Origin: Sphingomonas sp. Leaf17 | Lineage (GTDB): Bacteria > Pseudomonadota > Alphaproteobacteria > Sphingomonadales > Sphingomonadaceae | Length of the DNA stretch: 64,000 nucleotides | Assembly (NCBI RefSeq): GCF_001421505.1 | Contig: NZ_LMKL01000005.1 | Location: 1 to 64,000, forward strand | Reading direction: 5' to 3' | Shown here: piece after piece, positions 1 through 12,844 of the stretch | Position numbering within the stretch: the first letter of the stretch is position 1 | How the letters are laid out: each line of letters begins with the position of its first letter | The notes under the pieces: model-generated | Told to the model about the DNA's origin: nothing | The model's input: only the letters and a program-made list of their open reading frames with translations | The model's database searches: none | Position numbers and translations under genes: made by a program

Positions 1-1941
1 CCGCTCGGATGGGCGCACATCCTCCTCACTGGTGAATACCTCTGGCCAAAGGATACCGCCGCTTAGGGTGTCATTTCGCCCTCAGCCGGAACCGACCCCT
101 ATCTGACCACGCAGGCAAGGACATTGCTGAGCGCGGCAAGCCCTGCATTCGCCGCCGGATCGCCGTTGTTCCTGTCCAAATATTTCTACGATCTCACGCC
201 TGCCAATGACCAGACGACCAACACCGACACCTACCGAGCCGCCCTGTCGGCCCAGGGCGACTTCGATATCGCCAGCCGCAATTTCTACTGGTCGATCGGC
301 GGCAGCTATGCCCGCGTCGAGGGGCAGCAGCGAAGCTGGCAGATCGTCAATGCAAAGTTCCAGAACGCGATCAACGCCGTGTCGAGCGGTGGGCAGATCG
401 TCTGCGGCATCAACGCCGATGCGATCACCACCAACAACGATCCCGCCTGCGCGCCGATCAATCCGTTCGGTAACGGCAATGTCAGCGCAGCCGCCCGCGA
501 TTATGTGAGCACGCGCGCCGGGCTGGACTGGGTAAACGAGCAGGTCGATCTGCTGGCGACGCTTGGCGGTACGCTGGTCACGCTGCCGACCGGCAAGCTC
601 GACTTCAGCCTCGCCTATGAGCACCGCGACGAGCAGGCCCGCTTCGATCCGCTCGCTGCCAACCGCCTGGGCCTGTTCGGAACCGGCGTACAGCAGGTCG
701 CGCAATCCGGCGGCTACGACACCGATGAATTTTCGGCCGAAGTCATCATGCCGCTGATCGGCAGGGACTTCCAGCTGCCTCTGGTCAAGCTGCTGGAGGC
801 CAAGGGCGCGTTCCGCTATGTCGACAATAGCTATGCCGGGCATCAGAACGTGTGGGATCTCGGCCTGCGCTGGGAGGTCCTGGACGGCATCACGCTGCGC
901 GGCTCGCGCAGCCGCAACTTCCGCGCACCGACGCTTACCCAGTTGCTTGCCCCCTCGTCGAGCGGACTGGATTCGACGGGGTTCGACCCGTGCGACGCCG
1001 ATCGCATCAACGGTGGCCCGAACCCCGCGACGCGCCGCGCCAATTGCCTGGCCGTGTTCACCGCCAATCCCGGCTACGGCGTGGACGCGGATGGAACCGG
1101 CGCGTCGTTGAGCGCGGCGGGCCGCCTCGCCCGCTTCCAGGATCCATCCGAGAATTTTGCCCGGGCGACCGTCACCAGCGGGGGCAACCCGGCATTGCGG
1201 AACGAAATCTCGAACACCTGGACCTACGGCATCCTGCTCCAGCCGCGCTTCGTGCCCGGCCTGACGATCAGTGCCGACCGGATCGAGATCGACCTGAAGA
1301 ACGGTCTGTCGGCGTTCACCACCGCGGATTTCGCCGCCGCCTGCTACGATAACACGGCACCGGATCCGGCGGTATGCAATGCCTTTACCCGCCTTGCCGC
1401 CAGCGACGGGATCAGTCCGGGTGGCACGATCGCAACGGGCACGTCCACCACCTTCAACGCCGGCGTGGTCCGCTATCACGGCGAGAACTACATGGTGGAT
1501 TACCAGTTCCGGGTTGGTGACCTGGTCAACGGCGGGGACCTTGGCCGGTTGCAGCTGACCGCGACCGCGACGCACAATACGCTGCTGACCACCTCCGTCA
1601 CGGGGGCGACCTTCGTCCGCACCGACGACACCTATCTGTCGCCGGAATGGGTCGGCCGGTTCAATGTCGCGTATGCCAGGGGGCCGCTACGGTTGACCTA
1701 CCAGCTGCAATATTACGGGCAGACCGATGCCGGGCCGAACGTCTCGATCGAAACCACCCCGAACCCGACCCTGGCGAAGAACATAGTTCACGACGTGTCC
1801 GCGCAGGTCGAACTGGCCAGGATTGCGCTGCGCTTCGGGATCGACAACCTGACCGACAAGAGCCCGTCCTATCCACAGATCGCCTATGGCGACATTCTTG
1901 GCCGGCGCTTCTACGTCGGCGCGAAGATCAAGTTCAGGTAA
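1..1941 (+). CDS. TonB-dependent receptor, C-terminal part; 5' end cut by window, apparent frameshift near 60-70
   Basis: Outer-membrane TonB-dependent receptor for energised uptake of a ligand. The readable part from about 67 to 1941 is beta-barrel: SRNFRAPTLTQLL resembles the barrel motif of catecholate-type receptors, and the protein ends in a last strand DILGRRFYVGAKIKFR. The plug domain and TonB box would lie upstream of the window. In this frame a TAG stop occurs at 64-66 and no good start follows; TTG at 124 lies inside barrel sequence. In the +2 frame, bases 2-66 read RSDGRTSSSLVNTSGQRIPPL, which looks like the missing continuation, so a one-base deletion near 60-70 is likely. The gene is either a frameshifted pseudogene or carries a sequence error. 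It ends one base into a possible ATG of the next gene, so it probably heads the operon running to 6012. The ligand cannot be told from sequence. Confidence 0.8.
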
Positions 1942-2018
1942 TGGCCATGCCCGACGCTTTGCCGCCGGGCGGCCTCTCCCCATCGCCCCATGCGCCCCTG
2001 CAGGAAAAGACACCACCG

Positions 2019-3236
2019 ATGAACCGGCCGGAGCTCTCCGACCTCGCCCTTTCGGTCGCTGAGGTCGAACGCGTCGACGATGCTCGACCGTTCTCGACGG
2101 CTTCGTATTCGCAATGGGTGCGAAAGGTGATCCGTACCGTGCGGTCGGAGCGAAACCTGCTGGTGAGCCTGTTCGACAGCTCGGTGCCGGAACCGATCGA
2201 ACTGCTGCGGCAATTCGTGGTCGAAGGCTTTTCGGAAACGATCACCTCGCGCTACACCAGCGCCTTCGAGAACGGAAATCCGTACGTCGTCGAACAGCTC
2301 GCGCGGCGCTACGCCGTACCGCGCGATCAGGTGGTGTGCACGACCGGTGCCACCGGTGCGCTGTCGCTGATCTACCGCGCGCTGCTGAAACCCGGTGACC
2401 GGGTGCTCGTCGAAAAGCCCGGCTTCGACCTGTTTCACAAGATCGCCGAGACCTATGGTTTCGGGGTCGATCGTTTCGAACGGCGCGGCAATGATTTCGC
2501 GATTGATCCGGATGAGGTGGCGGCGGCAATGACCAGCGACACCCGACTGATCGTGCTCGCCAACCTGCACAATCCGTCCGGTATGGCGCTTCCGCCCGAA
2601 ACGCTCGCGGCGATCGGCCGGATCGCGGAGGCCCGCGGCGTGCATGTCATCGTCGACGAGGTGTATGGCGACTATATCGATCCCGCACATCGTCCGCTGC
2701 CCGCGATGCAGGTGTCGCCGGCGCTCATCAGCGTGAACAGCCTCACCAAATCGCATGGGCTGAGCACCTTGCGGTGCGGATGGATCGTCGGCGCGCCCGA
2801 GCCGATCCGCCATATCCGCGCGCTGGCGCAGGAAATCGACTTCGGCATCTCCAACCTGTCGCACGCGATCGCCGCACTGGTGCTGGAGCGTCCGCAGCCG
2901 TTCGACGACTTTCGCAGCGATATCATGCGGCGCGCACGGCCCATCGTGGAATCCTATCATGCATATTGGCGCGAGGAAGGCCTGGTTTCGGGCGACCTGC
3001 CGCCGTTCGGCTGCATCGCCTTTCCCCGGCTGATCGGCATCGACGACACCGTGCGCTTTTCCGAATGGCTGGCGGACCGCTGTGGCGTGATCGTGGCGCC
3101 GGGCGAGTATTTCGGCGGCCCCGGTCATATCCGCATCGGGTTCGCGCGCGCGCCCGCCGACGTCGATTACGGCTTGCAGGCGCTGACCGACGGGCTGATC
3201 CGATATCGCGACCAGCAAGCGGGGGATCGCAGATGA
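2019..3236 (+). CDS. PLP-dependent aminotransferase, class I/II fold
   Basis: Predicted cytoplasmic PLP enzyme of fold type I, 405 aa, which would transaminate an amino acid or a related amine. Visible features are TTGATGALS (cofactor phosphate-binding loop), NLHNPSGM (the usual NP-SG motif), VDEVYGDYI (Asp that pairs with the pyridine nitrogen, then Tyr), and SLTKSHGLSTLRCGW, where Lys244 should form the Schiff base. A C-terminal HIRIGFA carries the substrate-carboxylate Arg. ATG 2019 is preferred because AGGAAAAG lies about ten bases upstream. In-frame ATGs at 1941 and 1947 overlap the receptor stop and would add 24-26 residues without a better ribosome site. It overlaps the peptidase by 4 bp (ATGA), so the two are translationally coupled. 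Family membership is clear; the substrate is not. By context it may act on amino acids released by the peptidase. Confidence 0.88.
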   Translation: MNRPELSDLALSVAEVERVDDARPFSTASYSQWVRKVIRTVRSERNLLVSLFDSSVPEPIELLRQFVVEGFSETITSRYTSAFENGNPYVVEQLARRYAVPRDQVVCTTGATGALSLIYRALLKPGDRVLVEKPGFDLFHKIAETYGFGVDRFERRGNDFAIDPDEVAAAMTSDTRLIVLANLHNPSGMALPPETLAAIGRIAEARGVHVIVDEVYGDYIDPAHRPLPAMQVSPALISVNSLTKSHGLSTLRCGWIVGAPEPIRHIRALAQEIDFGISNLSHAIAALVLERPQPFDDFRSDIMRRARPIVESYHAYWREEGLVSGDLPPFGCIAFPRLIGIDDTVRFSEWLADRCGVIVAPGEYFGGPGHIRIGFARAPADVDYGLQALTDGLIRYRDQQAGDRR

Positions 3237-4705
3237 CCATGACACGAGGCCTGATCGCGGCGCTGCTGGCGATGTCGAGCTGGATGACCCCGGCGGATGC
3301 TCAGGACCGGCGGACCGCCGTCGAGGTCAGGGCGACGCGCGATCTGGTCACGACGATCCATGGGCGCACGCTTGCCTACACCGCCGAAGTCGGCCTGGTG
3401 CCGGTGTCGAGCCGGCCTGGCACCACCGACGCGACCGCCGGCTACATCTCGTACAGCGTCGCGGGCCCGACCGTGCGCCCGGTGATGTTCATCTTCAACG
3501 GCGGCCCCGGCGCTGCGTCCGCGTATCTGCAGATGGGAGCGCTCGGCCCCGCGCGCGCGCGCGTCCCCCAGGATCCGGCCGCCATGCTGCCGATGGCGGC
3601 TCCGGTCGATGCCAATCCGCAGGCCCCGCTGGACCTCGTCGATCTCGTCTTCCTCGATCCGCCGGGTACCGGCTTTTCGACGATAGATGCCAAGGCGGAC
3701 CGCACCTTCTATCAATCGGTGACGGGCGATGCCGATGCCGTGTCGCAACTCGCACGCGCATGGCTCGCCGCTCATGGTCGCACCAACGCGCCGATCTACA
3801 TCCTTGGCGAAAGCTATGGCACGATCCGCGCTGCGGCGATGGTCGATGCGTTGCGGGCGCAGGATCCGGCACTGAAACTGCGTGGTGTGGTGCTGCTCGG
3901 TCAGGCGCTCAACATGATCGAGACATCGCAGCGCCCCGACAATATTGTCACCTACCCGGTATCGCTGCCCACCCTTGCCGCGATCGCCTGCTACCACCGC
4001 AAGCGATCCACCCCTTGCGATCCGGCGGCGAGCGCACGCGAAGCCGCGGCCTACGGGCCGATCTATCTCGACGCCCTCTATCGGGGGCAAGCCCTGGACA
4101 CCGCGATGCGCGATGCGGTGGCGACGAAACTGGAAACCCTCAGCGGCATCCCGAAGACCTATTACATCGCACATGACCTGCGCATCTCGAAGGAACAGTT
4201 CCGCGTCGAACTCCTGCGCGCCGAGGGCAAGGTGCTCGGCCGCTACGACGCGCGCTACACCGCACCGCGTGCTGCCGGCGCTGGCGACAGCGTCGGCCCG
4301 GATGCCTTCTCGCCCGTATCCGAACTCTACGGGAAAGCCATCATCGACCATCTGGCGACGATCGGCGTCAGCGATGCCGCCGCCTACAAGGTGATCGTCC
4401 GTGGGGAAGGCGATTGGCGATACGGCGCGGGCGACTCGCCGTTCAACGACTGGCCGTTCATGGCTCGCCTTGAAAAGGCGATGGCGGCAACGCCTGGACT
4501 TCGTCTTTTCGTCGGCACGGGATTGTTCGACCTTACCACGACCGTTGGAGCCGCCGACTATCTGTTCGCGCAATCGTCGCTCGCCCCCGCGCGATATCGC
4601 AACGAACGCTATCCCGCCGGGCACGTCTTTTATTCAGACGACGTCAGCTGGCGCAAACTGATGCGCGACCTCCGCGCGTTCGTTGCCGATGGAGCACCGC
4701 GTTGA
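3233..4705 (+). CDS. serine carboxypeptidase, peptidase family S10, exported
   Basis: Exported S10 carboxypeptidase of 490 aa that should remove C-terminal residues from peptides. The N terminus MTMTRGLIAALLAMSSW, ending near PADAQ, is a signal peptide with a cleavage site close to residue 24. FNGGPGAASAYLQMG is the family oxyanion-hole region (normally NGGPG-S). GESYG holds the nucleophile Ser194. GTGLFDL supplies the Asp, and YPAGHVFY the His near the C terminus. The start ATG overlaps the previous stop (ATGA) and the end overlaps the permease (TTGA), giving a strict three-gene unit. S10 enzymes act best at low pH in many organisms, but nothing here shows the substrate. Together with the TonB receptor upstream, it suggests periplasmic trimming of an imported peptide. 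Confidence 0.9.
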   Translation: MTMTRGLIAALLAMSSWMTPADAQDRRTAVEVRATRDLVTTIHGRTLAYTAEVGLVPVSSRPGTTDATAGYISYSVAGPTVRPVMFIFNGGPGAASAYLQMGALGPARARVPQDPAAMLPMAAPVDANPQAPLDLVDLVFLDPPGTGFSTIDAKADRTFYQSVTGDADAVSQLARAWLAAHGRTNAPIYILGESYGTIRAAAMVDALRAQDPALKLRGVVLLGQALNMIETSQRPDNIVTYPVSLPTLAAIACYHRKRSTPCDPAASAREAAAYGPIYLDALYRGQALDTAMRDAVATKLETLSGIPKTYYIAHDLRISKEQFRVELLRAEGKVLGRYDARYTAPRAAGAGDSVGPDAFSPVSELYGKAIIDHLATIGVSDAAAYKVIVRGEGDWRYGAGDSPFNDWPFMARLEKAMAATPGLRLFVGTGLFDLTTTVGAADYLFAQSSLAPARYRNERYPAGHVFYSDDVSWRKLMRDLRAFVADGAPR

Positions 4706-6012
4706 GCGACGCCAACCTCGCCAAGGGCATTGACCTCTGGGGCGTCGTGGCACTCGGCCTGGGGACCGCGGTTGGCGTATCGATCTTCTCGGCGATCGCG
4801 CCCGCAGCGAAGATGGCCGGACCGGCGATGCTTTTGTCCGCGTTGCTCGCGGCGCTGCCGATGTACCTCATCGCGATCAGCTACGCGTTTCTCGGCTCGG
4901 CCTGCCCCGTATCGGGGGCGTCGTTCGTATGGCCGGCGCGGTTCCTGCACCCCGCCTGGGGCTTTTATATCGGCTGGGCGCGGATAGTCGCCAATGTCGG
5001 CGCGATCGTCGTGCTGGCGCTGGTGCTGGTCAGGTACGCAGCGATGCTGGTTCCTTTGCCGACGAAGCCGACCATGCTCGTGGTGCTGCTGCTCGCGCTG
5101 CTGGCCAACCTTTTCGGCATCGGCATTGCCGCGCGCGTACAGAAAATCCTTCTTGCGGGCATGCTGATACTGTTCGCGATCTTCGTCGTCTGGGGTGGGT
5201 CGACCGCAGTTGACGTGACCCGCTTGCAACCGTTGTTCCCCAACGGACTGCACGGGATGATCGCCGCGACGCCGCTGCTGATGGGGCTGTTTTTCGGAAT
5301 TGAGGCCGCGACCGAGGCCGGCGCGGAGGTGACCGACAGCCGCCGCACCATCCCGCTGGGGATCGCGCTGTCGATCGGCTCGGCGACGCTGCTGTATCTG
5401 GCGGTCGGCTTCGTCGCGCTGGGCGTGCTTGGCGGCGATGCGCTCGGTGCCAGCGATGCGCCGATCCTAGACGCCGCCAGGCGCTTCATGGGCCCCGCCG
5501 CAACGCCGATCGTCGTGCTGGCCGCAGTCCTGTCGATCGGCAAGTCGCTCAACGCGCTGTTCGCGATGTTCAGCCGCAGCCTCTATGCGATGGGCCTCGC
5601 GGGTTCGCTGCCCGCCGCGCTTGGCAAGGTTCATCCGCGCTGGCAGACCCCGTATGTGGCGCTGATCGCGGTATTCGTGCTGGGCTGCATCGGACTGCTG
5701 CTGCCAATGGAACTCACCTTCCTGTTCCTAGCGGTAAACATCCCCAACCTCCTCAAATATGGCAGCATCTGCCTTGCCGCCGCGCGCGTCACGGAACGGC
5801 ATCCCGAGTTGTACGAGGCGGCCGCGTTCAAGTTCGCCAAGCCCCGTATGCGCGCGCTTGGATATGCGGGTGCGTTTTGCGCCCTTGCGCTGATTTTCGT
5901 CGGGCTGGAGGCCGATTGGCGTCCCTACGCACTACTGGCGACGTGGATGATTGCCGGCATGCTGTATCGCAATTTCCCGCCCCAACGCCTGAGGGCGTGG
6001 CGATCGCGCTGA
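4702..6012 (+). CDS. APC-superfamily amino acid permease
   Basis: Inner-membrane secondary transporter, 436 aa, with about twelve hydrophobic segments. The first helix carries GLGTAVGVSIFSAIAPAAKMAG, the APC-type broken helix that binds the substrate backbone (G-x-G-I/V motif). A later segment GIEAATEAGAEVTDSRRTIP is the conserved loop after helix 6 seen in amino acid/polyamine permeases. Translation starts at TTG 4702, which overlaps the peptidase stop codon, so expression depends on coupling. The TTG start is supported by the overlap and because residues begin directly before the first helix. It would import the free amino acids or small products of the S10 peptidase. Exact specificity cannot be read from the sequence. 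Confidence 0.88.
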   Translation: MSDANLAKGIDLWGVVALGLGTAVGVSIFSAIAPAAKMAGPAMLLSALLAALPMYLIAISYAFLGSACPVSGASFVWPARFLHPAWGFYIGWARIVANVGAIVVLALVLVRYAAMLVPLPTKPTMLVVLLLALLANLFGIGIAARVQKILLAGMLILFAIFVVWGGSTAVDVTRLQPLFPNGLHGMIAATPLLMGLFFGIEAATEAGAEVTDSRRTIPLGIALSIGSATLLYLAVGFVALGVLGGDALGASDAPILDAARRFMGPAATPIVVLAAVLSIGKSLNALFAMFSRSLYAMGLAGSLPAALGKVHPRWQTPYVALIAVFVLGCIGLLLPMELTFLFLAVNIPNLLKYGSICLAAARVTERHPELYEAAAFKFAKPRMRALGYAGAFCALALIFVGLEADWRPYALLATWMIAGMLYRNFPPQRLRAWRSR

Positions 6013-6249: not shown

Positions 6250-6765
6250 TCAGGCCGCCGCGCGGCGGTTCCACGGCATCCTCCGCAACAGGCTTGCCAT
6301 GCCACACGAGCCGGTCGTGCCCGAGAACACCAGCCCGGCACCGACGAACGCGGACAATCCGAAAAAGCCCGGTGCGACAAACACGCCCAGCACCACACCG
6401 GCCAGCACCAGCGACCCCGCGGTGATCTGGACCTGCCGCATGATCTCCAGCGGCTGCGAGCGATCCGCGATGGTGCCAAGCCCGGCGCTGCGCCATGCGT
6501 CGATCCCGCCGTCTAGGATAAAGGCCGGGGCACCGCCGGCGGCGGCCAGTTGCGCGGCATTGGCCCTGGTCCGCATGCCCGAACGGCAATGGAACACCAC
6601 CGGCCGACCGTCGCGCGGCAGGTCGCCGATCCGCGCCAGCGGCAGGTTTGCCGCCCCGGCGATCCGCTCGCGCGCATGTTCGTCGGCGTCCCGGATGTCG
6701 ACCAGCCGGGCACCCGCGGCGATCGCGGCGCGCGCATCGGTCGGCGTCATCGTTTCGATCGTCAT
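6250..6765 (-). CDS. rhodanese-domain membrane protein (rhodanese + DUF2892, YgaP-like)
   Basis: A 171-aa fusion of an N-terminal rhodanese domain (about 1-105) and a C-terminal DUF2892 membrane hairpin (about 108-155). The rhodanese loop VVFHCRSGMRT carries Cys60, expected to hold the persulfide during sulfur transfer. The C-terminal part, from ITAGSLVLAGVVLGVF to GTTGSCGMA, gives two helices that place the enzyme on the inner membrane. The architecture equals E. coli YgaP. Start ATG 6765 is chosen because AAGGAC lies eight bases upstream and the domain starts at once. It follows the BigR-like gene by 4 bp, so both share one transcript, pointing to sulfane-sulfur handling under that repressor. 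Confidence 0.88.
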   Translation of the reverse strand: MTIETMTPTDARAAIAAGARLVDIRDADEHARERIAGAANLPLARIGDLPRDGRPVVFHCRSGMRTRANAAQLAAAGGAPAFILDGGIDAWRSAGLGTIADRSQPLEIMRQVQITAGSLVLAGVVLGVFVAPGFFGLSAFVGAGLVFSGTTGSCGMASLLRRMPWNRRAAA

Positions 6766-6769
6766 CGTC

Positions 6770-7081
6770 TCAGTCCTTGCAATACAGGGTGTAGAGGGTG
6801 CCGAGGAGCGTCTCGACGCGGGAATCGGCGATGCGATACCAGAGTGTCTGGCTTTCGCGGCGGAAGGCGACGAGTCCCTCGTCGCGCATCCGGGCAAGAT
6901 GCTGCGAGCACGCCGAGGGCGACAAGCCGACATCGCGCGCCAGATCGCCGACAGTCTGCTCGCCGTGTTCGACCAGCTTGCACAGCAGCATCAGCCGGCG
7001 GGCATTGCCGATCGCCTTGAGTATTTCGGCGACCTCGCCCGCCTTCGTCTCGAATGTCGCCAGATCCAGCGGCTTCATCAT
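6770..7081 (-). CDS. bigR: ArsR-family transcriptional regulator, BigR/SqrR-like persulfide sensor
   Basis: A 103-aa winged-helix repressor of the ArsR family. The DNA-reading helix is in VGLSPSACSQHLARMRDEGLV. Two cysteines, Cys34 in LMLLCKLVEHG and Cys101 in LYTLYCKD at the C terminus, match the spacing of the redox pair that forms a tri/tetrasulfide link in BigR and SqrR; no metal-binding CVC motif is present. It is the first gene of a unit with the rhodanese and diverges from the persulfide dioxygenase-like gene. The shared 70-bp intergenic region holds inverted repeats, so autorepression plus control of both transcripts is expected. The start could be either of two adjacent ATGs (7081 or 7078). 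The symbol is by resemblance, not proof. Confidence 0.87.
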   Translation of the reverse strand: MMKPLDLATFETKAGEVAEILKAIGNARRLMLLCKLVEHGEQTVGDLARDVGLSPSACSQHLARMRDEGLVAFRRESQTLWYRIADSRVETLLGTLYTLYCKD

Positions 7082-7092
7082 GGCCTTGCTCC

Positions 7093-7122
7093 ATTAGGTA
7101 TTGCTAATGTAGTTAGCGCTAA
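7093..7122. promoter_or_regulatory. probable BigR operator in divergent promoter region
   Basis: ATTAG (7093-7097) and CTAAT (7104-7108) form an inverted repeat with a 6-bp spacer, and TTAGCGCTAA (7113-7122) is a perfect 10-bp palindrome five bases on. The stretch is much more AT-rich than its surroundings and lies between divergent regulator and hydrolase starts, overlapping where both promoters must be. Assignment to the adjacent ArsR-type repressor is inference from position and symmetry. Confidence 0.65.
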
Positions 7123-7151
7123 TATATTGTCAATCCGAACGGAGGACGATC

Positions 7152-8030
7152 ATGACGCAGCCATATTTCCAGGGCTTCTTCGACACCCCGACCAACACGA
7201 TCAGCTATATCGTCGGCGATCCCGCGACGCGCATCGCGGCCGTGATCGACCCGGTCCTCGATTTCGATCTGGCGAGCGGCGTCGCCGATACCCGGTCGGC
7301 CGAACGGATCCTTGCCTTCGCCCGCGAGAATGACTGGCGCATCGCGATGGTGCTGGAAACGCATGCCCATGCCGACCATCTGTCGGCAGCCCCCTTCGTC
7401 AAGGCGCATACCGGGGCCTGGATCGGCATCGGCGAGCACATCCGCGACGTGCAGCGCATCTTTCGCCCGGTGTTCGCGATGACCGATCTGAAGACCGACG
7501 GCTCCGACTTCGACCGGCTGTTCGTCGATGGCGACCGGTTTGCGATCGGCACGCTCGACGTCGAGGTACTCCACGTCCCCGGACACACGCCGGCCGACGT
7601 CACCTACCGGATCGGCGACGCCGCGTTTGTCGGGGATACTCTGTTCATGCCCGACTATGGCACCGCCCGCGCCGACTTTCCCGGTGGCGATGCGCGCACG
7701 CTGTATCGCTCGATCCGCCGGCTGCTGGAGCTGCCGGCCGCGACGCGGCTGTTCCTGTGCCACGACTACAAGGCACCGGGACGCGACGACTATCGCTGGG
7801 AGACGAGCGTCGGCGAACAGCGCCGGTCCAGCGTCCACGTCCACGACGGCGTCACCGAGGATGATTTCGTCGCGATGCGCGAGGCGCGTGACGCCGGCTT
7901 GTCGGTGCCACGACTGCTGCTGCCGTCGATCCAGGTCAATATTCGCGCCGGGCACTTCCCGGAGGCCGAGGCCAATGGCGTCCGCTATCTGAAAATACCC
8001 GTAAAGACAGGAAACCCGACCCAAGGCTGA
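7152..8030 (+). CDS. blh: MBL-fold hydrolase, persulfide dioxygenase-like (Blh/ETHE1 type)
   Basis: Cytoplasmic metallo-beta-lactamase-fold protein, 292 aa. THAHADHLSAAP is the metal-binding HxHxDH motif, VPGHTPADV supplies the next His, VGDTLFMPDYG the bridging Asp, and LFLCHDYK the last His. This pattern and size fit Blh/ETHE1-like non-haem iron sulfur dioxygenases that oxidise glutathione persulfide to sulfite. GGAGGA lies 5 bases before ATG 7152. Divergence from a BigR-like repressor and a rhodanese is the arrangement known from sulfide-detoxification operons of plant-associated bacteria. A sulfide:quinone oxidoreductase and a sulfite exporter often accompany such genes but are not in this window. 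Confidence 0.88.
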   Translation: MTQPYFQGFFDTPTNTISYIVGDPATRIAAVIDPVLDFDLASGVADTRSAERILAFARENDWRIAMVLETHAHADHLSAAPFVKAHTGAWIGIGEHIRDVQRIFRPVFAMTDLKTDGSDFDRLFVDGDRFAIGTLDVEVLHVPGHTPADVTYRIGDAAFVGDTLFMPDYGTARADFPGGDARTLYRSIRRLLELPAATRLFLCHDYKAPGRDDYRWETSVGEQRRSSVHVHDGVTEDDFVAMREARDAGLSVPRLLLPSIQVNIRAGHFPEAEANGVRYLKIPVKTGNPTQG

Positions 8031-8075: not shown

Positions 8076-10070
8076 CTACCGTATCCGCAATTCGAACGGC
8101 ACGGCGGGCAGGTCGTCTGCGCTATACAGGTTCACATAAGGAGAATCGGCCCAGGCATAGCGAACGCGCGTGACGCCGGGCCGGTTCGCACCGCGCAGGA
8201 TGACCCGCGTCCCGTCCGGCGTCCCGTCGACGAAACGGCAGGCCTGATCGTCGCATGCCTCGAATCCGATCGCCGTGGCGCTGCTGTAAGTGCGAAGGCC
8301 GCCCGTGGCATCGCGGAAATCGACGATCAGGTCCTCGCCCTGCCGTGTTGCCGCCACCGCCTCGGGGCCACCCGGTGCGATCGGTTCGCCATAGGCCACC
8401 GCCCGGGCCGCACGGGCCAGCCGCTCGCCGACGACGGTCTTCTGGGTCGGATGAATGTCGGTCCGGTCACCCACGTCGATCGACACGGCCAGTCCCGCAT
8501 GGCCATCGGCCCGCGCGACCTTGGCCTGCACGTCGCGCAACGCCGCGGATGCCGAGTTTGCCGGCTGGGTCGCGACCGCACCGTAATTGGCCAGCTGGAC
8601 GACCAGCATCGGCAGTGTCGGCTGGCCAAGGGTCCGCCGCCAGTCGGCCATCATCAGCGGCAGCAGCGTGGCATATTCATCCGCCGCACCGACATTCGAT
8701 TCGCCCTGATACCAGGCCGCCAGCTTGAAGCCGTAACCCGCCAACGGTGCGATCATGCCGTTGTATAATGTGGTCAAGCTGACCGGCACGTCCCAGGGGG
8801 CTGCGGGGATCGACAGGCCCCTGGCCGCCATCCCGACCTGATACCGCCACGCCGCCGTCAGCGGAATGAAGGCACCCGACGCGGTCTTTATGCCGCGATT
8901 GGCCGGCTGCCCCGTCAGGCCGCCGCCTGCGCCGCCGCTCAGCACACGGACCGCAATCACGTTGCGCCCCGCACGAAACACGCCCGCCGGTACCGTATAG
9001 TCGCGCCAGACCCACGCCGTGCTGCCCCCACCGACGCGCACGCCATTGACCCAGGTCGTGTCGAAGGTGTCGACCGGCCCGAGTTGCAGCAGGTTGGCGT
9101 CCCTGGCCTGCGCCTCGGTCAGATCGACCGTGGTGCGGAACCAGCCGACGCCGTCGAACGCGGCAAAAGCCGGAATGCCGGCGTCCTTCCACGATCCGGT
9201 CGGCGTCATCACCGGCCAGCGCGAGTCGTCGAAATCGGGCCTGGCCCACGCGCGCTGCGTCGCCGCCGCCGGGTCATGCGCGTCCCACCATGCCTCCTGC
9301 CGGCGCTCCTCGGTGGCGCGGGCCGCGGCCGGGTCGGTCGCGAGCTGCTGGACCGCCGCCACGCCGGCCGCATAGGCGGGCACGGTCCTGAGCGACGGGG
9401 CACCGATCCAGCCCTGAATCGTGGTGCCGCCCCATGCCGCCGTCACGAAACCGACCGGCACCTTCAGATGCTGCTTCAGCGATCGGGCCATGTAATAGCA
9501 GACGGCAGACGCCTCGCCGACCGTGTCCGGCCCGATCGCCCGCCACATCGCCGGCTTGGCCAGATCGTCGAGCGGCGCAGGCTGCGTCTCCTTGGGAATG
9601 GTCACGAAGCGCAGGTCGGGGTCGATTGCCGACGCGACCCCGCCCCAGGCATTGGTCGACAACCGGGCGGGGAACTCCATGTTGGACTGGCCGCCGCACA
9701 GATACACGTCGCCCACCGCAATGTCGGCGAACGAGGTGGCGGCCGTTCCCGCCCTGACGGTGAGCGTATGGCCCGTGCCCGCCGGCATCGCCGGGAACGT
9801 GACGCGCCAGCGCCCCTGTCCACTGGTCCGCGCGGTCACCGACCGACCAGCGAGCGTCACCGTGACGGCGGTCCGAGGCGCCGCCCTGCCCCAGACCGCG
9901 ATCGGCCGGTCGCGCTGCAGCACGGCATGGTCGGCAAAGATATGCGCGAAGGTCGGCGGGGCGGCCTGCGCCATCGCCGGCGCTGCGCCCGCCACCGTCA
10001 GCGTCGCCGCCGCGATTGCCACCATCGTCCCATATGCCATCGTCTTCTTCCCGTCCTGTCGTCGTGTCAT
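8076..10070 (-). CDS. sialate O-acetylesterase-like carbohydrate acetylesterase, exported
   Basis: SGNH-fold esterase, about 664 aa, that should remove O-acetyl groups from a polysaccharide. A signal peptide runs through TMVAIAAATLTVAGAAPAMAQA. DVYLCGGQSNMEF near residue 127 holds the nucleophile Ser and block I; AWYQGESN is the second SGNH block; DRTDIHPTQK has the Asp-x-x-His. A jelly-roll domain (about 275-395, starting near FDDSRWP) is inserted in the hydrolase domain, as in bimodular SAE/CE20-type xylan or xyloglucan esterases. ATG 10070 gives a positively charged n-region (TRRQDGKK). GTG 10088 overlaps the upstream stop, and ATG 10040 has the best ribosome site (GGGAAG), so the start is uncertain. 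It faces the mannanase genes, and deacetylation of mannan is the natural reading. True sialic acid as substrate is unlikely. Confidence 0.82.
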   Translation of the reverse strand: MTRRQDGKKTMAYGTMVAIAAATLTVAGAAPAMAQAAPPTFAHIFADHAVLQRDRPIAVWGRAAPRTAVTVTLAGRSVTARTSGQGRWRVTFPAMPAGTGHTLTVRAGTAATSFADIAVGDVYLCGGQSNMEFPARLSTNAWGGVASAIDPDLRFVTIPKETQPAPLDDLAKPAMWRAIGPDTVGEASAVCYYMARSLKQHLKVPVGFVTAAWGGTTIQGWIGAPSLRTVPAYAAGVAAVQQLATDPAAARATEERRQEAWWDAHDPAAATQRAWARPDFDDSRWPVMTPTGSWKDAGIPAFAAFDGVGWFRTTVDLTEAQARDANLLQLGPVDTFDTTWVNGVRVGGGSTAWVWRDYTVPAGVFRAGRNVIAVRVLSGGAGGGLTGQPANRGIKTASGAFIPLTAAWRYQVGMAARGLSIPAAPWDVPVSLTTLYNGMIAPLAGYGFKLAAWYQGESNVGAADEYATLLPLMMADWRRTLGQPTLPMLVVQLANYGAVATQPANSASAALRDVQAKVARADGHAGLAVSIDVGDRTDIHPTQKTVVGERLARAARAVAYGEPIAPGGPEAVAATRQGEDLIVDFRDATGGLRTYSSATAIGFEACDDQACRFVDGTPDGTRVILRGANRPGVTRVRYAWADSPYVNLYSADDLPAVPFELRIR

Positions 10071-10084
10071 TGAAAGTTCGTTGC

Positions 10085-11269
10085 TCACGCCCGGGCGACG
10101 GTGCGCAATCCGCCGATTCCCGCATCCGCCACCGGTGCGATCCGGTTACGTCCGTCCGCCTTGGCGACATAGGCCCAGCGGTCGGCGCGATCGAGCAGGG
10201 TCTCGACCGTATCACCTGGCTGGAGATCGGCGATGCCCCCGCTGACCGTGACCGCCGGCAGGGCGCCGCCCAGGTCGGGCAAGGTGCGGCGGATCGCCTG
10301 CGCCACCTGCCACGCACCGCGCAGCGTCGTGCGGTCGAGCATCACGACAAACTCCTCCCCGCCGATCCGGGCGATGACGGCCGATGGTGACACCGTCCGG
10401 CGCAGGGTGTCGGCAAAGGCGCGCAGCACCGCGTCACCGACCGCGTGGCCGAAGGTGTCGTTGATCCGTTTGAAATGATCGAGATCGAAAAAGATCAGCG
10501 CAAGCGGCATGTCCGTCCGGCGCATCTCGGCGATCATCCGCGCGGCCTGCCGCGCTAAACCGCGCCGGTTGGCGACCACCGTCAGCGGATCCGTTTCCGA
10601 TTCGCTGATCGTCTGGCCCATCGCCGCCTGCACCACGACAAGCAGGACGAACAGTCCGGCCATCACGATCAGCACGCCGCCGGTCGCCTGCGAGAACAGC
10701 GCGTAGGCGCTGGTGCTGTAGGCCATGGCGGTCGTGCCGGACCCGAAGGCGTGCGCGAAGAACGGCTTGGTGACGAAATGGGCCAGCATGAAGCCAAAGG
10801 TGATCGCGACGGCCAGCCACAGCCGTTGCCCCGTCCGGCGCGCGGCACCGATGGCGATCGACATCGACAGGGCCGCGGTCGCCATGAACGGTGCCTGATA
10901 CGCCAGTTCGTACCCCAGGTCGTTGCGCGGTCCGCCCCAGATCACGATCCGCGCCAGGATGCCGCCGGCCAGGATCGCGCCAACCAACCGCCAGGGCGCG
11001 GGTCGCCCAGCGGTCGCCGCCAGCCCGATCGACATGGCAAGACCGGACACCAGGAACGTGCCGTAGCTCGACGCGACGAAACTACTGTCCCAGGCCGTGA
11101 ACCGCACGCCCAGTTCGCTCAGCGGCGTCAGCATGCCGATGAGATAGGCCGTGCCGTACCAGATGACCTGCCGCTGCCCGGGGTACGACAGGCGAATGAC
11201 CGCAAAGGCGACGGCGAACAGCAGCGCCACCGACGCATTGACGATCAGAGCATACACCGCACCATCCAC
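10085..11269 (-). CDS. membrane diguanylate cyclase (GGDEF domain)
   Basis: A 394-aa protein with about seven hydrophobic segments in residues 1-215, then a GGDEF domain (about 225-380). FFDLDHFKRINDTFGHAVGD is the substrate/metal region and ARIGGEEFVVML the catalytic GGEEF loop, so it should make c-di-GMP. No RxxD inhibitory site precedes the loop (residues there are SPSAV), so product inhibition through the I-site is not expected. The membrane part is not a domain I can name. It lies immediately upstream of the acetylesterase, overlapping or abutting its start, and is therefore likely co-transcribed with a polysaccharide-degrading enzyme. The 222 bp between it and the divergent mannanase must contain both promoters; I saw no clear operator there. 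Confidence 0.88.
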   Translation of the reverse strand: MDGAVYALIVNASVALLFAVAFAVIRLSYPGQRQVIWYGTAYLIGMLTPLSELGVRFTAWDSSFVASSYGTFLVSGLAMSIGLAATAGRPAPWRLVGAILAGGILARIVIWGGPRNDLGYELAYQAPFMATAALSMSIAIGAARRTGQRLWLAVAITFGFMLAHFVTKPFFAHAFGSGTTAMAYSTSAYALFSQATGGVLIVMAGLFVLLVVVQAAMGQTISESETDPLTVVANRRGLARQAARMIAEMRRTDMPLALIFFDLDHFKRINDTFGHAVGDAVLRAFADTLRRTVSPSAVIARIGGEEFVVMLDRTTLRGAWQVAQAIRRTLPDLGGALPAVTVSGGIADLQPGDTVETLLDRADRWAYVAKADGRNRIAPVADAGIGGLRTVARA

Positions 11270-11491
11270 CTGGGGTCACCGTTCCTGTCGCATTGCCCTG
11301 TCCGACACCGCCATAAAACCGGCAGGCAACCATTGCGTTAATGCGCCGGCCTGTTTTCCACGGCGTACGCCATGATGTACTGCGGTCCTGTCTGACCGGA
11401 TAAATACTTTACGCCGCATGGCCTTGTGCATATCCAGCAGCGACCGGCCGAATACCGCTACCATGGCCGGTCACTGGAGAGGTTGCAGCGC

Positions 11492-12844
11492 ATGGATCAT
11501 GTTACCCGCCGTTCGATGATGGTCGCCGGCGCTGCCCTGTTGGGGGCCTGCGCCGCCGGAAACCGGCCCGGCACCCGCCCGGTGCCGCCGGCCGGCAGCG
11601 ACTTCGTCACTGTCGATGGCCTTGGCTTTCGTCGTCGTGGCGAACCCTATCGCTATGCCGGCGCGAACATCTGGTATGGCGCGTGGCTTGGTGCCGACAC
11701 CGCCTATGGCGATCGCGCGCGACTGGGTCGCGAACTGGACCGGTTGAAGGCGCTTGGCATCCGCAACCTGCGGATCCTGGGTTCGGCCGAACTGTCCCCG
11801 CTGAAAAACTCGATCACGCCGGGCTTTCGCGACAAGAGCAGCACCTACAACGAGGATCTGCTGAAGGGGCTGGACTGGATGCTGGCCGAGATGGCCAAGC
11901 GTGACATGACTGCGGTGATTTATCTGACCAACTTCTGGGAATGGTCGGGCGGAATGATGACCTATCTGTCGTGGGTCAATGGCGGCCGCTTCATCAACAT
12001 GAACGACCCCGCGCATCCCTGGCCCGAGTTTCCGAACTGGAACGCCGCCTTCTACGCCAACGGACAGGCGCAGGCGATGTACCGCGACTATATCCGCAGC
12101 GTCGTCACCCGGACCAATTCGGTCACCGGCGTCGTCTATGCCAGCGACCCGACGATCATGGCATGGCAGCTCGCCAACGAACCACGGCCCGGCGGATCGG
12201 ATGCGATCGCCGCCGCCAACCTGCCCAATTTCTATCGCTGGATCGACGGGACCGCCCGCTACATCAAGACGCTGGATCGCAATCACCTCGTCTCGACGGG
12301 ATCGGAGGGGTTGAAGGGGTCGATCGAGCGGGAGGATATCGTCCTCAACGCGCATCGCTCGCCGGCGATCGACTATCTGACCACGCATATCTGGCCGAAC
12401 AACTGGAGCTGGATGGACGCCGGGCGGCTGGCGCAGACCTATGATGCCGGCGCGGCCAAGGTCGCGGACTACATCGCGGCCCATGTCCGCATGGCCAAGG
12501 CGCTCGGCAAGCCGCTGGTGATCGAGGAGTTTGGCTATCCGCGCGACGGTGCCGACGCCTATGATCCGTCGATCCCGACGACATTCAAGGACCGGTTCTA
12601 CCGCCAGATCTATACCGCGATCGAGGCAAGCGCGAAGTCCGGCGGGCCGCTGGCCGGCTCGAACTTCTGGGCGTGGAATGGCGAGGCGCGGACCCCGCAT
12701 GCCGACCACCGGTTCGTGCGCGGCGACCTTGGCTATATGGGCGATCCCCCGCACGAGCCACAGGGGTGGTACGGCGTATTCGACAGCGATGCGTCGACGC
12801 TGGACGTGATCCGTGCCCACGCCGATGCGCTGGCGAAGGTGTGA
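11492..12844 (+). CDS. GH5 endo-beta-1,4-mannanase, probable lipoprotein
   Basis: Glycoside hydrolase family 5 enzyme, 450 aa, predicted to cut beta-1,4-mannan chains internally. The N terminus DHVTRRSMMVAGAALLGAC ends in a lipobox (LGAC) with a preceding twin Arg, so it should be a lipid-anchored, possibly Tat-exported protein. WQLANEPRPG contains the acid/base Glu230 of the NEP motif; VIEEFGYP holds the nucleophile Glu345 or Glu346. RNLRILG and HIWPNNWSWMD resemble the subsite regions of fungal-type GH5_7 mannanases. ATG 11492 is preferred, with GGAGAGG nine bases ahead; an upstream in-frame start at 11426 would spoil the signal. It is followed by the GH26 gene after 2 bp, so both belong to one operon. 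Confidence 0.88.
   Translation: MDHVTRRSMMVAGAALLGACAAGNRPGTRPVPPAGSDFVTVDGLGFRRRGEPYRYAGANIWYGAWLGADTAYGDRARLGRELDRLKALGIRNLRILGSAELSPLKNSITPGFRDKSSTYNEDLLKGLDWMLAEMAKRDMTAVIYLTNFWEWSGGMMTYLSWVNGGRFINMNDPAHPWPEFPNWNAAFYANGQAQAMYRDYIRSVVTRTNSVTGVVYASDPTIMAWQLANEPRPGGSDAIAAANLPNFYRWIDGTARYIKTLDRNHLVSTGSEGLKGSIEREDIVLNAHRSPAIDYLTTHIWPNNWSWMDAGRLAQTYDAGAAKVADYIAAHVRMAKALGKPLVIEEFGYPRDGADAYDPSIPTTFKDRFYRQIYTAIEASAKSGGPLAGSNFWAWNGEARTPHADHRFVRGDLGYMGDPPHEPQGWYGVFDSDASTLDVIRAHADALAKV

Follow-up and report, generated by a model that had tools for sequence, protein, structure and literature searches.

A four-gene fragment at a transposon end in Sphingomonas sp. Leaf17, probably left over from a conserved TonB-coupled cluster for peptide use

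Four genes at the start of a contig

Genes for a TonB-dependent receptor, an aminotransferase, a serine carboxypeptidase and an amino-acid permease lie side by side in Sphingomonas sp. Leaf17, raising the question of whether they form one coupled set and what such a set might import. The window, which is the whole stretch of 64,000 nucleotides analysed here, is contig C5 of the strain's own assembly from base 1, and so begins at a contig start. The four genes are probably, at odds of roughly 65%, what is left of the right-hand side of a conserved, TonB-coupled cluster for peptide utilisation. Their content, order and truncation, like the absence of the remaining genes from the assembly, are read from the sequence. 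The features at the left end of the window are as follows.

1 to 66, forward strand: C-terminal end of a Tn3-family transposase and its stop codon (PLGWAHILLTGEYLWPKDTAA, stop), identical to the end of the 965-residue TnpA of contig C4
59 to 99, no strand assigned: terminal inverted repeat of the transposon, 41 bp, with its outer end at base 99
100 to 1941, forward strand: 3' part of a TonB-dependent receptor gene, with the signal peptide, the plug and the start of the barrel missing
1941 to 3236, forward strand: class I aminotransferase-like PLP enzyme (PF00155), with ATG 1941 or ATG 2019 as start
3233 to 4705, forward strand: S10 serine carboxypeptidase (PF00450, fold, invariant active-site residues), exported (signal peptide by eye)
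4702 to 6012, forward strand: APC-family amino-acid permease with a TTG start (PF00324, PF13520)

Pfam recognises the receptor barrel (PF00593, 43.6 bits against a cut-off of 27), the aminotransferase (PF00155, 147.7 against 19.7), the carboxypeptidase (PF00450, 43.8 against 21.9, over residues 75-220 only) and the permease (PF00324, 115.9 against 24.6; PF13520, 114.1 against 27). The last three are intact frames in Leaf17 that stand without their native upstream region. The original prediction described three genes overlapping by 4 bp each; the overlaps are real, but there are two among the three genes, at the aminotransferase/S10 and S10/permease borders. The TTG start that it assigned is indeed that of the permease. 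A scan for regulatory signals gave no useful information, finding one promoter-like site where 0.8 were expected and three terminator-like sites where 3.6 were expected.

By Pfam, predicted fold and residues, the window protein is a member of the S10 serine carboxypeptidases. The ten best PDB fold matches of its model (45 sequences, pLDDT 90) are S10 enzymes, including cathepsin A and carboxypeptidase Y, at 12-15% identity, while a PDB sequence search with the protein returned nothing at E<=0.001. Asn89-Gly90 (within Asn-Gly-Gly-Pro), Glu193-Ser194, Asp433 and His464 are invariant in 45 of 45 aligned rows; presumably Ser, Asp and His form the catalytic triad, and Asn and Glu hold the C-terminal carboxylate of the substrate in the S10 fold. 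In the aminotransferase (39 sequences, model pLDDT 89.5), Lys244 and Arg372, numbered from the 2019 start, are invariant in the 39 aligned rows and are taken here to be the PLP lysine and the carboxylate arginine.

Further downstream, open reading frame translations judged by eye resemble a rhodanese-like protein, an ArsR-type regulator and a metallo-beta-lactamase-fold protein (window 6250-8030), perhaps a sulfide-detoxification set. A sialate-O-acetylesterase-like protein, a GGDEF protein and a mannanase-like glycosidase follow at 8076-12844, likewise by eye.

Gene order in relatives

Two peptide patterns, run against genome contigs, yielded 92 confirmed relatives of the aminotransferase, and the loci around the best 80 of these were compared, with partner families called at E<=1e-8; contig ends truncate some of the loci. 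TonB receptor, aminotransferase, S10 and APC permease genes are consecutive and co-directional in 23 of these 80 loci (best 80 of 92). The S10/permease border has a 4-bp overlap in 21 of the 23 exact-order loci and the aminotransferase/S10 border in 13, and S10-, PLPv- (class V PLP enzyme) and S10+ stand directly upstream in all 23. The order, whose absence from relatives had been named beforehand as the refuting outcome, is therefore present, and the proposal that the four families form a coupled set holds up in sphingomonads, where they are conserved, co-directional and overlapping. The gene order is beyond chance. The chance of an S10 gene near the aminotransferase is about 0.8% per 21 kb, a rough rate based on 139 rows of S10 matches, with fragments counted too, from 100 genomes of an assumed mean size of 3.7 Mb.

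The proposal that these four genes are the complete set is not borne out: the clusters of relatives comprise about ten genes, and the four form the right half. In four congeners the four genes keep this order beside a constant left half, consisting of an Lrp-type regulator, an OCD/mu-crystallin protein, an amidohydrolase, an S10 enzyme, a class V PLP enzyme and a second S10 enzyme. By eye, the amidohydrolase bears a signal peptide and the class V PLP enzyme has a Tat-like motif. Five more congeners carry the aminotransferase in rearranged forms of the cluster. Across the best 80 of 92 loci, partners are present as S10 (77), OCD-type protein (61), APC permease (60), Lrp-type regulator (58), TonB receptor (53), class V PLP enzyme (49) and amidohydrolase (49). 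The cluster ranges from Sphingomonadales to Caulobacterales and Azospirillum/Nitrospirillum.

In a panel of 100 genomes, the aminotransferase is found at E<=1e-40 in 10, the strain's own included, and S10 and amidohydrolase genes lie beside it in all nine others; several genomes belong to both the panel and the 80-locus sample, so neither tally is independent of the other, and related species likewise do not count as separate events. One panel genome (G001) has the amidohydrolase at 51% without the aminotransferase.

Two additional families recur. An open reading frame family of about 570 residues occurs in 44 of the best 80 of 92 loci and is M61-like: three of four exemplars match the M61 aminopeptidase model just over its cut-off, and one matches 7xyo at 6e-20. 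Seventeen frames in 17 loci represent a second type of TonB receptor, as judged from one scanned exemplar. Another group of 86 frames in 42 loci was rejected as a gene family, its coordinates pointing to a mostly antisense reading. Four Azospirillum/Nitrospirillum loci (L125, L132, L134 and L140) have a doubled OCD-type protein with two OCD domains per frame, and these long proteins were discarded as a clue to a new partner, being just two OCD domains. In several Phenylobacterium loci, two OCD-type genes are found close to the permease gene.

The transposon end and the missing left half

The receptor gene begins abruptly. Frame 1 of the window reads PLGWAHILLTGEYLWPKDTAA, then a stop, then the open receptor frame, and window bases 1-99 recur without a mismatch as the final 99 bases of contig C4, where they are the right end of a transposon, and in reversed form at an end of contig C11. 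The C4 element, about 5 kb long, encodes a 965-residue Tn3 transposase (PF01526, 433 bits) and a resolvase (PF00239) and has 41-bp inverted repeats; these features place this copy in the Tn3 family, and just its final 99 bp are present in the window. In a search for the 5-bp target duplication, TATCT flanks the transposon end on the receptor side, and no matching other side was found in the assembly.

Within C4:576001-583243, the C4 copy sits inside a gene resembling penicillin amidase (PF01804), the frame of which stops shortly ahead of the transposon, and the same locus contains two 108-bp left-end copies at a distance of 162 bp, with a single intervening N. Contig C11, 26,964 bases long, has transposon ends at both termini and a left flank that looks tyrosine recombinase-like by eye; it is possibly the segment between two transposon copies.

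An intact receptor in a relative has 1026 residues and a plug at 70-191. The window receptor aligns from residue 412, leaving about 411 residues (roughly 40%) missing, and thus lacks the signal peptide, the plug and the initial barrel segment; neither a plug domain (by Pfam) nor a signal peptide was found in the window copy. A start at TTG 124 was rejected, since this codon is internal to the gene, a short way beyond the transposon junction. The original prediction correctly saw receptor sequence ahead of the three genes, yet this is a fragment with the barrel part alone and no Plug match. As encoded, the receptor of Leaf17 cannot work, and the working receptor presumed for this strain is lost with the first 40% or so of the gene at the transposon end. 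The cluster in Leaf17 is a truncated remnant and probably no longer whole.

The 5' half of the receptor, the two S10 genes, the class V PLP enzyme, the amidohydrolase and the OCD-type protein were not found in the strain's own assembly. When the intact-cluster DNA of one relative (L035) is compared with the Leaf17 genome, the matches are the region from the receptor 3' part to the permease, a single downstream gene that is unrelated, and some short segments; for the closest relative, the left cluster portion (L083:1-8100) gives only four short matches. The genome has one S10 copy, and the amidohydrolase was not found in it at E<=1e-40. Deletion beside transposon copies, or recombination between them, is the likeliest cause.

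The contig might instead be merely broken at a repeated transposon end, with the receptor and left half intact in the cell. Such a break is what a k-mer graph would be expected to produce, and the contig begins exactly with a repeat, the 99 bp common to the C4 and C11 ends. This explanation is improbable nonetheless. Several kilobases of unique DNA should form a contig of their own, the genome is recorded as 100% complete in 11 contigs, left-half DNA from two relatives gave only short matches, and the receptor 5' half is joined to none of the six transposon ends found in the assembly. Even with an assembly gap, an interruption at base 99/100 would remain in the receptor gene. Part of the receptor gap may come from the assembly breaking at the repeat.

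The cut probably happened recently. The closest relative among the best 80 of 92 loci, Sphingomonas sp. OK281, has an intact cluster with an aminotransferase at 90% identity, an S10 at 83% and a permease at 92%; DNA similarity between it and the window ends at 5970, just within the end of the permease gene. Values of dN/dS against OK281 lie between 0.07 and 0.18 across all four window frames, which suggests the recent date. Decay of the remnant was considered and set aside: nonsynonymous/synonymous counts are nominally slightly raised on the window branch relative to the OK281 branch (receptor 30/87 and 14/64, aminotransferase 20/51 and 6/40, S10 39/58 and 31/53, permease 16/73 and 12/59).

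Proposed pathway and known systems

The ligand and each biochemical step that follows are inferred from gene content. In relatives with the intact cluster, the TonB receptor would bring a peptide through the outer membrane. The exported S10 enzymes, the exported dipeptidase-like amidohydrolase and, often, the M61-like aminopeptidase might then trim the peptide ends outside the inner membrane, where the exported class V PLP enzyme may work on a residue or product. The permease would take the freed amino acid inward, the aminotransferase would remove its alpha-amino group inside the cell, and the OCD/ketimine-reductase-type enzyme could deal with the resulting imine, while the Lrp-type regulator may sense the amino acid. 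APC permeases carry amino acids. The peptide-use reading put forward in the original prediction gains from the wider cluster, which adds more peptidases, and from the resemblance of the S10 model to cathepsin A and carboxypeptidase Y. Against a peptide cluster, the permease is not seen in 20, the TonB receptor in 27 and the OCD-type protein in 19 of the best 80 of 92 loci, some of them cut by contig ends, and the nearest named relatives of the aminotransferase are biosynthetic enzymes.

The OCD-type protein of relatives exceeds the PF02423 cut-off and is nearest to P2C reductase and the ketimine reductase mu-crystallin, at 219.2 bits under an equivalog cut-off of 322 for P2C/Pip2C reductase (NF004793). 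The amidohydrolase exceeds the PF01979 cut-off and is distantly like Xaa-Pro dipeptidase and the L-arginine carboxypeptidase Cc2672, at 84.9 bits under the Xaa-Pro dipeptidase equivalog cut-off of 500 (NF051886). The best NCBIfam matches of the aminotransferase are GntC (NF041364, 177.6 bits under a cut-off of 415) and the capreomycidine synthase VioD (TIGR03947, 161.4 under 390.9). Because the equivalog cut-offs of the nearest named families are missed, the substrates of all three enzymes may be quite different.

A possible alternative is general nitrogen scavenging, in which peptides are broadly digested with no special ligand and the aminotransferase and an alanine-dehydrogenase-like OCD-type protein free ammonia. 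Several exopeptidase types occur together, an Lrp-type regulator belongs to the cluster, and the OCD-type protein scores 171 bits against archaeal alanine dehydrogenase and also matches 1omo. The dedicated receptor and the conserved aminotransferase clade kept with the cluster, however, suggest a narrower substrate.

A pathway dedicated to peptides with an arginine-derived or other guanidino amino acid seems unlikely. The aminotransferase would here be a lyase or cyclase like GntC or capreomycidine synthase, put to catabolic use, and the OCD-type enzyme would reduce a cyclic imine. GntC is a hydroxyarginine cyclase. It occupies the top seven PDB rows in the fold search with the aminotransferase model, the cyclase OrfR (4m2j, 4m2m) is also among the matches, and the NCBIfam matches, the distant likeness to Cc2672 and the proximity of the OCD-type protein to P2C and ketimine reductases point the same way. 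The low scores against GntC and VioD speak against this reading, as do the ordinary aminotransferases close behind in the fold search. It is similarly speculative that the cluster represents a widespread, undescribed alphaproteobacterial pathway, in which a specific peptide with an unusual arginine-derived or ketimine-forming amino acid would be imported and then degraded by an OCD-type reductase together with a PLP enzyme resembling GntC, the exported PLP enzyme acting outside the cytoplasm. No description of the cluster was found in an open full-text literature search screened at search-result level; the part of an ochratoxin paper (PMC11640390) considered here has no bearing on it.

An island for biosynthesis and re-uptake of a small peptide-like metabolite, suggested by NCBIfam matches to the biosynthetic or tailoring enzymes GntC, SbnB and PvdN beside a receptor, is very improbable, given that SbnB (109.8 of 326.9 bits) and PvdN (36.4 of 650) fall far under cut-off, that, beyond the cluster's own families, recurrence was recognised in the best 80 of 92 loci only for the M61-like family and the second TonB receptor, and that no peptide synthetase or ligase is among the exemplars scanned, a scan that covered rare families in part.

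A peptide-utilisation cluster of this kind would give Alphaproteobacteria a TonB-dependent route of peptide use that can be tested. The transposon-cut copy in Leaf17 is the wrong place for function tests; OK281 or S. adhaesiva, with an intact cluster, are the right ones.

Several known systems frame the cluster. RagAB mediates TonB-coupled oligopeptide uptake in Porphyromonas. The cluster shares with RagAB-type loci an outer-membrane receptor beside degrading enzymes and an inner-membrane importer, but no SusD/RagB-like partner was seen in it, and S10, amidohydrolase, class V PLP enzyme, aminotransferase, OCD-type protein and Lrp-type regulator are present instead. The carboxypeptidase has the fold and invariant active-site residues of cathepsin A and carboxypeptidase Y, whereas its identity to them is low and no PDB sequence matches at the threshold used. 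GntC is the nearest fold to the aminotransferase and, with VioD, its best NCBIfam match, yet the enzyme stays far under both equivalog cut-offs and is placed in a peptidase and uptake cluster rather than a known biosynthetic one. The C4 element resembles Tn3-family transposons in its TnpA (PF01526), its resolvase (PF00239) and its 41-bp inverted repeats starting GGGG, and differs in having a passenger gene of its own.
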